From the NCBI GenBank assembly GCA_015058295.1, contig SVCP01000011.1, positions 1-42,481 of the forward strand: a DNA stretch of 42,481 nt, given 5' to 3'. Source of the stretch: Anaerofustis stercorihominis. Lineage in GTDB: Bacteria > Bacillota > Clostridia > Eubacteriales > Anaerofustaceae. Both the position numbers and the translations under genes were made by a program. Positions 11,596 to 19,967 of this stretch are shown here, piece after piece. Position 1 is the first letter of the stretch; each line of letters starts with the position of its first letter. The notes below the pieces were generated by a model. That model was given only the letters and a program-made list of their open reading frames with translations. It was not told where the DNA came from and did no database searches.

Positions 11596-11747
11596 TGTAA
11601 TGCTCGTCTAAATGAACGAATACTACGTTGTTTTGTATTTTTGCTTGCTCGTGTACTCTCGGGTACACCACGCTGCGCAATAATCCAAAGCCGCCTTGTC
11701 TTCGTCCATTTATACTTCGCATTAAGCAGAACTATGTTGAAAAAATT

Positions 11748-11771
11748 GCTGCCCGGAAGGGTGGCTTTTTT
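11748..11771 (+). terminator. Terminator-like hairpin in repeat module A, copy 1
   Basis: GCTGCCC-GGAA-GGGTGGC (two wobble pairs), then six T residues. A run of A residues upstream would allow it to act in both directions. It may end the tRNA-Ser transcript. Confidence 0.6.
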
Positions 11772-12200
11772 AATGCTTGTCTAAATTGACCTATGCTGTG
11801 TTGGTTGCATCACCGTCCATGCTCATTTACCGGAAGTAAACCACGCATATCCGGTTCGCAATCCGCCTTGCCTACGAAAATTTATACTGCGCATAAAGGT
11901 AATTTGTACAGACGTGTACTGATATGTTGCGTTGTTTTGTATTTTTGCTTGCTCGTGTACTCTTGGGTACACCACGCGCGTCGAAACATCTTTGATTTGC
12001 CTCGAAAGTACCTGAAGGCACTTTCTCATTTCATAAAGATGTTTCTCCTTGTTTCGCCAAAATAGGATTTTGGCGAGAGTGGGAAAGTAACTGCAGATTG
12101 TGCGGAGTTTTTAAATTTTTGTTGTGGGTAATGATATCAAAAGCCGCCTTGTCTTCGTCCATTTATACTTCGCATTAAGCAGAACTATGTTGAAAAAATT

Positions 12201-12224
12201 GCTGCCCGGAAGGGTGGCTTTTTT
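12201..12224 (+). terminator. Terminator-like hairpin in repeat module A, copy 2
   Basis: Identical to the hairpin 453 bp upstream. Confidence 0.55.
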
Positions 12225-12297
12225 AATGCTTGTCTGAATTGATTTATGCTGTGTTGGTTGCATACGAAATATTATTATGCGCATGAGAGAGTTTTGT

Positions 12298-16311: not shown

Positions 16312-16340
16312 TTGACAATATCGTATATTGATATTACAAT
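16312..16340 (+). promoter_or_regulatory. Promoter of the PadR-DUF2812 operon
   Basis: TTGACA (16312-16317), 17 bp, TACAAT (16335-16340). The -10 lies inside the palindrome at 16328-16345. Confidence 0.8.
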
Positions 16341-16368
16341 ATCAATAGATGATATCAATAAATGATAT
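16316..16368. promoter_or_regulatory. Probable PadR operator, a cluster of TGATAT/ATATCA palindromes
   Basis: TTGATATT-AC-AATATCAA (16328-16345) is a perfect inverted repeat over the -10 box. CAATAT-CGT-ATATTG (16316-16330) lies just upstream and ATATCA-n5-TGATAT (16352-16368) downstream. PadR proteins commonly repress their own operon at AT-rich palindromes, so this is the obvious autoregulatory site. Confidence 0.65.
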
Positions 16369-16378
16369 TGGAGGATAA

Positions 16379-17880: not shown

Positions 17881-19029
17881 ATGAAGAAAAAGAAAATTTA
17901 TTTACCTGTGGACATTTATGATGCATCGTCTCTGAAGCTGTATTTTGAAGAGTCAAGCAGGGAGGGGCTTCATTTTCAGGAACTGAACACAAAGGGTTAC
18001 GGGATTTTTTCTGTCGGTGAGCCGCAGGATTATGGTTATATGCTCATACCTCCTGACAAAGACAGTATGTGGCCCGACAAAAATACGGTTGAAAAGTATG
18101 CAACTTACGGCTGGGAGCCGTTGACGCTGATACGTGGATATTATGAAGTATACCGTACATCGGATAAATCTGCTCCTTTGCTTAACGAAACCGCCGATGC
18201 AAAAGAAAAAGCATACAGGAATATAATGCGCGCCAAGAAAAGAACATTGTATCTTGAGGCGGGGGTGACACTTATTGCGGCTCTGATCGTATATATGGTT
18301 GTATCGCCTTCATTCGGATCTGTTATATCTGCCATTGAGACTCCTTTGTATATAATACCCACACTTATATTACTTACGTTGTTCTCCGTATTTTCGGTTA
18401 TAAAAGATTATATACGGTTAAGACAGTGGGAAAAGTTACATTCGGAATCTTATCCTGTTAACAATGACGGAAAGATCAGGTATATTCCGAAATGGAAGCT
18501 CATGGCAAAACGTTATGCGGGCATCGTCCTCGCTGTGTTTATGATAGTTGCCCCGTTCAGTGATCTTTTCATTAAAAAGAGCGGTTCTCCGGAAGATTTC
18601 CCGGGAGGATATCCTTACATACATACAGATGTGCTTGCCGGCACAGTTGATGATGTGAGTGATGGCGACGGATATTGCTATATACGCAAGAATTCATCTG
18701 TGTTCGCAAAAGAATATTATGAGGTAAGTTATGGTATCGGTTCCGGCACAGAAAATGCAATAAGCGCAAATATTTATTGCTGTAATCTGAATTTTGCGTT
18801 TCTGGCAGAGCCTCTTGCGGAAGAATTAATGGAAAGGTACTCTGTCTATGAATATTCAGAGATTCAATACGAAGGCTTTGACAGACTTTATGCAGGCAGT
18901 TTTGAGGGTTCTGTTCATGTACTCGTTTGCATGAAAGATATGCGTGTTATGAGTGTCCGGCTGGTGGGAGCACCTGTATCCGAAAGTTGTTTTGATGAAG
19001 TTCTTGACGTTATGAGCGGAATATACTGA
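17881..19029 (+). CDS. DUF2812 domain membrane protein, second paralogue, 382 aa
   Basis: Same architecture as its neighbour: N-terminal DUF2812 part (SLKLYFEESSREGLHFQEL, YGYMLIPPDKDSMWPDKN, YGWEPLTLIRGYYEVYRT), three hydrophobic segments near 125-145, 155-175 and 210-230, and a C-terminal extracytoplasmic domain ending in CMKDMRVMSVRLVG. Shared segments such as LAEPLAEE(L/I)M and the C-terminal pattern show a tandem duplication that has since diverged. ATG at 17881 with a GAGGAGG site. Last gene of the PadR operon, closed by a strong terminator. Confidence 0.83.
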   Translation: MKKKKIYLPVDIYDASSLKLYFEESSREGLHFQELNTKGYGIFSVGEPQDYGYMLIPPDKDSMWPDKNTVEKYATYGWEPLTLIRGYYEVYRTSDKSAPLLNETADAKEKAYRNIMRAKKRTLYLEAGVTLIAALIVYMVVSPSFGSVISAIETPLYIIPTLILLTLFSVFSVIKDYIRLRQWEKLHSESYPVNNDGKIRYIPKWKLMAKRYAGIVLAVFMIVAPFSDLFIKKSGSPEDFPGGYPYIHTDVLAGTVDDVSDGDGYCYIRKNSSVFAKEYYEVSYGIGSGTENAISANIYCCNLNFAFLAEPLAEELMERYSVYEYSEIQYEGFDRLYAGSFEGSVHVLVCMKDMRVMSVRLVGAPVSESCFDEVLDVMSGIY

Positions 19030-19045
19030 TTATTATTATGTGTAT

Positions 19046-19072
19046 GCTCCCCGGTACAGGGGAGCTTTTTTT
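19046..19072 (+). terminator. Terminator of the PadR-DUF2812 operon
   Basis: GCTCCCC-n6-GGGGAGC then seven T residues. Confidence 0.92.
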
Positions 19073-19078
19073 GTGGAA

Positions 19079-19167
19079 GCGCCGCAGGCGCTCACGCACA
19101 GCGTGAGCTGCAAAGGCGAAGCCTTTGTGTGTGAAAGCCCGCAGGGCTTTCACACTGCCTGCGGCGC
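19079..19167. repeat. GC-rich 89-bp cloverleaf palindrome (four perfect stems)
   Basis: An outer 11-bp stem (GCGCCGCAGGC at 19079-19089 with 19157-19167) encloses three perfect hairpins, each with a three-base loop: 8 bp at 19090-19108 (loop ACA), 7 bp at 19111-19127 (loop GAA) and 12 bp at 19129-19155 (loop GCA). The outer arms can instead fold locally into GCGCC-GCA-GGCGC and GCC-TGC-GGC, giving a chain of five hairpins. Only four bases in the element are unpaired outside loops. It is far richer in GC than its surroundings and lies between a terminator and sleB. No protein is encoded. It may be a miniature palindromic repeat. Confidence 0.9.
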
Positions 19168-19259: not shown

Positions 19260-19967
19260 ATGAAAAGCTCAGTAAAAATAACAGCGATAGTCATCATTTT
19301 TGTGCTTGTAATTGCCATGATCCCTGTTTCAATCATGGCAAGAGAGACCGTATACTACGGAAGCACCGATACGAAGACTGTCAGAGAAATACAGACAAAG
19401 CTGAAAAACTGGGGTTATTATGAAGGAGAGGTTGACGGAAAATTCGGATATCTCACAGAAACCGCAGTTAAAGAGTTTCAGCGTAAAAACGGACTGAAAG
19501 TAGACGGAAAGGTCGGAAATCAGACTTTCGCCGCTCTCGGTATGCCTACAGGTTCATCATCAGGATCTTCATCCGGCAGCACGTCATCTTCTTCGGGAGG
19601 CTCTTCCGGCGGGGAATCAAAAGATGTGATGATGCTTGCAAGATGCGTCAACGGCGAAGCGAGAGGAGAGCCTTATGCGGGGCAGGTTGCTGTTGCGGCT
19701 GTAATACTCAACAGAGTGGAACATTCTGATTTCCCGGATACGGTCAGCAGTGTAATATATCAGTCCGGTGCGTTTGATGCGGTAATGGACGGACAGATAA
19801 ACCTCACGCCATCGGATTCTGCTATCCGTGCGGCAAAAGATGCACTCAATGGCTGGGACCCTACAGGCGGTGCGATATATTATTACAATCCCCGCACAGC
19901 GACAAATCAGTGGATTCGCACACGTCCGATAATCACGACGATCGGGCAACATGTTTTCTGTGAATGA
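19260..19967 (+). CDS. sleB: Spore cortex-lytic enzyme SleB, 235 aa
   Basis: SleB hydrolyses muramic-delta-lactam-containing cortex peptidoglycan during spore germination. An N-terminal signal segment (IVIIFVLVIAMIPVSIMA, residues about 9-26) is followed by a peptidoglycan-binding domain (TVREIQTKLKNWGYYEGEVDG, then VKEFQRKNGLKVDGKVG), a Ser/Gly linker near 98-118 and the Hydrolase_2 catalytic domain, where ARCVNGEARGEP carries the expected catalytic glutamate. It is shorter than the Bacillus protein (about 305 aa), mainly in the linker. The ATG at 19260 has AAAGGAG. ypeB starts 7 bp after its stop, the usual sleB-ypeB pair. Confidence 0.93.
   Translation: MKSSVKITAIVIIFVLVIAMIPVSIMARETVYYGSTDTKTVREIQTKLKNWGYYEGEVDGKFGYLTETAVKEFQRKNGLKVDGKVGNQTFAALGMPTGSSSGSSSGSTSSSSGGSSGGESKDVMMLARCVNGEARGEPYAGQVAVAAVILNRVEHSDFPDTVSSVIYQSGAFDAVMDGQINLTPSDSAIRAAKDALNGWDPTGGAIYYYNPRTATNQWIRTRPIITTIGQHVFCE

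Follow-up and report, generated by a model that had tools for sequence, protein, structure and literature searches.

The 89-nt cloverleaf at positions 19079-19167 of the window (the whole 42,481-nucleotide stretch analyzed here) is intergenic and belongs to a repeat family that is dispersed across its genome (G000), a 1.83-Mb Clostridia assembly in 91 contigs. We lean toward the view that it is a copy of a dispersed non-autonomous DNA element that behaves as a REPIN or MITE does and is recognized by its folded shape. What is new is a strict three-arm architecture in which the sequence is hypervariable and paired at the DNA level. Our search of the open-access literature turned up no account of a dispersed bacterial DNA cloverleaf with three arms, although such an account may exist.

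The cloverleaf upstream of sleB

The element lies between the end of a DUF2812 operon and sleB, and its parts and neighbors are as follows.

19046..19072, plus strand: intrinsic terminator of the upstream DUF2812 operon, GCTCCCC...GGGGAGC followed by T7 (sequence)
19079..19167, no strand: whole element, a three-armed cloverleaf palindrome of 89 bp (fold, and a family of at least 24 copies)
19079..19089, no strand: left half of the outer stem, GCGCCGCAGGC, which includes the family half-site GCCGCAGGC, itself a GCC-GCA-GGC hairpin (half-site count)
19090..19108, no strand: arm 1, 8-bp stem, triloop ACA (fold)
19110..19128, no strand: arm 2, 8-bp stem (7 Watson-Crick pairs and one G-T), triloop GAA (fold)
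19129..19155, no strand: arm 3, 12-bp stem, triloop GCA (fold)
19157..19167, no strand: right half of the outer stem, GCCTGCGGCGC (fold and half-site search)
19260..19967, plus strand: sleB, cell-wall hydrolase, a neighbor outside the element (Hydrolase_2, PF07486)

The DUF2812 gene ends at 19029, the T7 run of its terminator ends 6 nt before the cloverleaf, and ypeB follows sleB. The sequence and PF07486 thus agree with the neighbors named in the first-pass annotation, an operon terminator upstream and sleB downstream. The outer stem has 11 bp and all three loops are 3 nt long. Two junction bases are unpaired, or four when the G-T pair of arm 2 is left open, and the latter is the number given earlier.

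Folding with both DNA and RNA parameters bears out the four-stem, triloop cloverleaf that had been described. With DNA parameters, the centroid fold is the cloverleaf, which also makes up the core of the minimum-energy fold of 131 nt (-48.5 kcal/mol, compared with -24.4 +/- 2.8 kcal/mol for shuffled sequences; z = -8.6). With RNA parameters, it is the minimum-energy fold (-69.8, z = -8.8). The same DNA had also been said to fold as a chain of five hairpins. Such a chain can form, but it is much weaker than the cloverleaf (-49.2 vs -70.8 with RNA and -32.5 vs -46.7 with DNA parameters), a difference of about 14 (DNA) to 22 (RNA) kcal/mol.

Other repeats were observed in the window. An AT-rich chain of CAATATC inverted repeats (window 16316-16370 and L198 1781-1835) lies upstream of the DUF2812 operon in both G000 and a congener, G001, and is possibly an operator region. 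Near-identical tandem repeats with units of about 269 bp occupy 25-601 (repeat region 25-611), and near-identical 128-nt copies begin at 11683 and 12136, 453 bp apart (region 11683-12263), beside tRNA-Ser.

A dispersed family with three arms

The half-site GCCGCAGGC occurs 94 times in G000, compared with 4 occurrences of the reversed control. Many half-sites form facing pairs 70-100 bp apart, some stand singly within coding sequence and several are at contig ends. Searching the genome with the window element returned weak matches at first, and several of these proved to be further cloverleafs whose outer stem is the same and whose arms are unrelated. By reading all half-sites, with the outer stem as the sole guide, we identified at least 24 non-redundant elements with the outer stem GCCGCAGGC...GCCTGCGGC, each enclosing exactly three inner hairpins. 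The total is at least 26 with a second adjacent unit in L005 and an element with a variant outer stem (L250:2343). A model built from arm-trimmed copies (R1) served just to find more copies, and we draw no covariation claim from it.

The architecture is constant and the arms are hypervariable. Among the 24 elements there are 23 distinct stems for arm 1, 20 for arm 2 and 24 for arm 3, on outer stems of 9-15 bp. The middle arm alone is semi-conserved, and arm 2 of the window element is of this type (...AAAGGC nnn GCCTTT...). Triloops cap 52 of the 72 arms, the end is GC-loop-GC in 45, and 55 show strict self-complementarity.

All 24 elements are intergenic, as judged from long open reading frames, and many lie close behind a stop codon or terminator. 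A T6 run points at the element in 11 copies and has the opposite polarity in one; the left/right asymmetry of these runs depends on how the contigs happen to be oriented, and we draw nothing from it. In the window, the T-run lies ahead of the element as part of a different hairpin, so the arrangement of an intrinsic terminator, its own stem and then a T-run, was not found in this cloverleaf.

Two other dispersed repeats were observed in G000. One is about 130-200 bp long: its GCCGCAGGCGGC and GCGACGCGCAGCGTCGC hairpins are followed by AAAAGGGTGGGCGGGTGGGAATT and by a conserved, AT-rich tail that contains ACACAAGAAGATAT and GTTACTTTCCC (L031, L032, L040, L045, L046, L047, L049, L053, L065-L067 and L075). 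It has the half-site and G-tract of the cloverleafs and is not a closed cloverleaf. The other is a hairpin repeat, GCCCTCCCTTnnnnAAGGGAGGG ... GGGAGGGATTGTC, at L017, L044, L064, L065 and L067.

The first-pass annotation had proposed looking for copies in the genome and its relatives, and they were found in G000, in G001, in G007 (same family as G000) and in the Clostridia MAG BRZ_CD__bin5. We tabulated 60 elements from these four, and all have three hairpins; one enclosed four-arm chain and a few two-arm chains, the latter as short structures, were also seen. In 358 kb of sampled G001 sequence there are 13 three-arm elements, most of them with a different outer stem. Often two units lie side by side between CCCGCCCGCCC / GGGCGGGCGGG tracts, one outer stem (L111) reaches about 26 bp, and a compensatory series AACCGATGC, AAGCGATGC, AAGCGCTGC has the matching 3' arm in each case. 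G007 has 7 elements in 100 kb, with perfect outer stems 12-35 bp long, a different one at each locus. BRZ_CD__bin5 (about 37% GC) has 10 elements in 32 kb, with AT-rich arms, 4 of them reached through the GCCGCAGGC motif and 6 not. No three-arm element was found in 200 kb of G009, 40 kb of G005 or 40 kb of G002. The stretches sampled from all these genomes, G001 and G007 included, were picked for convenience (contigs of known length) and not at random.

Chance had been excluded in the first-pass annotation, and our controls agree. A structural scanner found the architecture 0 times in 1.36 Mb, made up of 582,575 bases of other loci, from which a few loci with recognized cloverleafs had been removed beforehand, and 781,116 dinucleotide-shuffled bases. 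A pattern scan of genome contigs gave 67 matches, most of them single hairpins or chance matches in GC-rich genomes. True three-arm folds were present in RGIG6509, E07__bin56 and BRZ_CD__bin5, whereas the folds in the cultured Neglectibacter sp. X58 (NZ_QWEO01000040.1, one copy) and in an uncultured Eubacterium were less perfect. On inspection, none of 20 pattern matches in viral contigs was a three-arm cloverleaf. A class-wide covariance search recovered 1 of the 24 known G000 copies, so its negatives mean little. As a separate observation, the GC-rich Acidobacteria MAG110 has three single long hairpins (L130, L140 and L157) with CCGCCGCAGGC ends as in the cloverleafs and one arm instead of three, possibly a case of convergence or a distant relative.

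Empty sites, an inversion and pairing at the DNA level

Elements are present or absent at orthologous sites, in both directions between the congeners. The syntenic obgE-yhbY gap holds an element in G001 and none in G000, and the gap at C61:43268 holds one in G000 and none in G001. Upstream of sleB, the region singled out earlier for comparison, G000 has the element and G001 lacks it; the adjoining gene also differs there. Because the intergenic sequence of the congeners is too diverged to define exact junctions, these empty sites may reflect loss instead of gain. A single copy fixed at this locus had been named beforehand as the pattern that would speak against mobility; the finding of at least 24 dispersed copies together with these differences supports the mobile palindrome that had been offered as one option.

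The elements also coincide with rearrangement. A two-gene block encoding a histidine kinase and a response regulator is inverted between G000 and G001. In G000 a cloverleaf stands at each breakpoint; these two have the same arm 2 and nearly the same arm 1. Neither breakpoint has a cloverleaf in G001. Other elements adjoin local rearrangements as well (both copies in L076, and C61:50763 beside an inverted gene). This coincidence lends weight to the recombination substrate that had also been suggested.

These observations bear on whether the cloverleaf is instead a selected, non-mobile chromosomal site, a cruciform bound by a nucleoid, supercoiling or junction-resolving protein (gyrase, IHF-like, RuvC/Xer-like). 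A four-way junction conserved at the DNA level, the intergenic location and the association with inversion would all suit such a site. However, the congeners differ strongly in how many copies they have and in the type of outer stem, sampled stretches of the family's other genera lack the element, and the tested sites are not common to both congeners. We therefore regard a fixed structural site as unlikely.

A structured RNA, the third option raised earlier, is disfavored by how the stems pair. Over the 60 elements, 2,470 of 2,482 pairs are Watson-Crick and 12 are G-U (0.5%). Our scanner demands mostly Watson-Crick stems, so the sets from outside G000 are biased against G-U; the 24 elements of G000, which the outer motif alone had first revealed, have 6 G-U in 1,003 pairs. 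By comparison, G-U makes up 36 of 603 pairs (6%) in 70 terminator-like hairpins of the same genome. Where one strand has a G-U pair, its complement has a C-A mismatch that does not pair. The near-absence of G-U therefore indicates that pairing is kept on both strands, and that the constraint acts at the DNA level. Moreover, the shape persists while the sequences of the arms change almost without restriction, a pattern that favors a DNA structure that moves or recombines over an RNA.

As RNA, the copies could be secondary terminators, insulators or protectors of mRNA 3' ends, as proposed for REPs, and both their frequent position close behind a stop codon or terminator and the extreme stability of the RNA fold would suit such a role. 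Yet many copies lie behind an already complete terminator and would thus be rarely transcribed, the fold is strand-symmetric, and the cloverleaf has no match in Rfam (gathering score) or to a tRNA (ARAGORN). Together with the G-U counts, these results make a 3'-end RNA element quite unlikely. It is improbable that the palindromes are self-made, with template switching at stalled replication forks making and perfecting nested hairpins at hairpin-prone 3' ends and no dedicated mobility: the long, perfect, locus-unique outer stems of G007 and the triloops that differ or are inverted (TGC/GCA) between otherwise alike arms fit such a process, but the GCCGCAGGC half-site common to distant genomes, the arms common to several copies and the constant number of three arms are left unexplained by it.

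Proposed mechanism and comparison with known systems

If the cloverleaf is a mobile element read by shape, the recognized feature would be an outer stem enclosing exactly three arms, so that a single DNA strand forms an almost perfect four-way junction. Active transposition would begin when the locus is single-stranded, as lagging-strand template or as an extruded cruciform, and the strand folds. A structure-specific enzyme acting in trans, most likely a Y1/HUH-type or similar single-strand transposase, would cut or copy the cloverleaf. New copies would reach other intergenic sites, often just past terminator T-runs, and recombination between related copies would invert the DNA that separates them. 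Perfect stems may be kept by selection, by hairpin-templated (quasipalindrome) correction or by both. Because shape and not sequence would be read, the arms would be free to change as long as the strands stay complementary. The outer stems vary from genome to genome and, within G007, from locus to locus, which simple copying does not explain.

The first-pass annotation had suggested a RAYT or other single-strand transposase as a partner, and our search of G000 tied none to the element. Y1_Tnp is represented there by an IS200-type TnpA broken into two parts, both at contig ends, and by a RAYT-like fragment at L110 1459-1743 (the end of contig C8), none of them adjoining a cloverleaf, and neither GCCGCAGGC nor a GCCGCC motif is present at these three loci. 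The fragment scores 21.5 bits against an NCBIfam cut-off of 80, and its HUH motif reads LPDRANFL, without the two histidines; from this sequence it is possibly a catalytically dead or domesticated protein. Since the G000 assembly is incomplete and in 91 contigs, an intact dedicated transposase linked to the family, which we did not find, may be absent from the data.

We tentatively extend the idea to a class of clostridial elements defined by shape alone, a stem and three arms, that a structure-specific enzyme would move or recombine. Repeat finders that work from sequence mostly overlook such elements, because within one genome the copies have little more than a 9-bp half-site in common and, elsewhere, the architecture alone. 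If true, they offer a natural system for how DNA shape, rather than sequence, is recognized and copied, and for how palindromes stay perfect during sequence turnover. They may also account for local inversions and contig breaks in these gut genomes.

The closest parallels are REPINs and MITEs. As in REPINs and BIMEs, two inverted copies of a small hairpin flank a spacer in intergenic DNA, and spacer length and pairing outweigh sequence; in all 24 copies GCCGCAGGC ... GCCTGCGGC encloses a spacer that folds. Alternative long-hairpin and clover configurations have been discussed for REPINs (PMC3116915). REPs are defined by a GTAG or CGTC tetranucleotide tag at the palindrome foot (PMC3733652). 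In contrast, the cloverleafs lack this tag: within 8 nt of the 24 copies we counted GTAG 1, GGAG 0-3 and CGTC 0-2, with no consistent side, and found no fixed terminal tag. Their spacer always forms three separate arms, nearly all different in one genome, and whereas REPINs are mobilized by a RAYT, no intact RAYT was found in G000. Like MITEs, the cloverleafs are short, non-coding, intergenic and patchy among relatives, with terminal inverted repeats (the outer stem, in G000 and at L111 of G001) and empty sites at obgE-yhbY and C61:43268, where exact junctions are not resolvable. Unlike MITEs, they have no target duplication (a direct repeat of at least 5 in 2 of the 24 copies, compared with 2.1 in shuffled pairs), their interior varies between copies, and no parent transposon was identified. 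Because tag, target duplication and transposase were not found, we describe the cloverleaf as working like a REPIN or MITE and do not file it as a member of either.

Hairpin recognition in single-stranded DNA and the lack of target duplication in IS200/IS605 elements would fit the cloverleaf, and G000 has an IS200-type TnpA, but the ends of its IS200 copy carry neither GCCGCAGGC nor GCCGCC. The GC-rich palindromes of organelles (Volvocalean algae, sponge and fungal hairpin elements) are likewise dispersed hairpin repeats in intergenic DNA; they belong to eukaryotic organelles, and the portions of those accounts available to us mention no three-arm rule. Integron attC sites have conserved outer ends and a variable interior and are read as a folded strand, and in this the cloverleaf would resemble them. 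The cloverleaf differs from them in its three separate arms with perfect stems.
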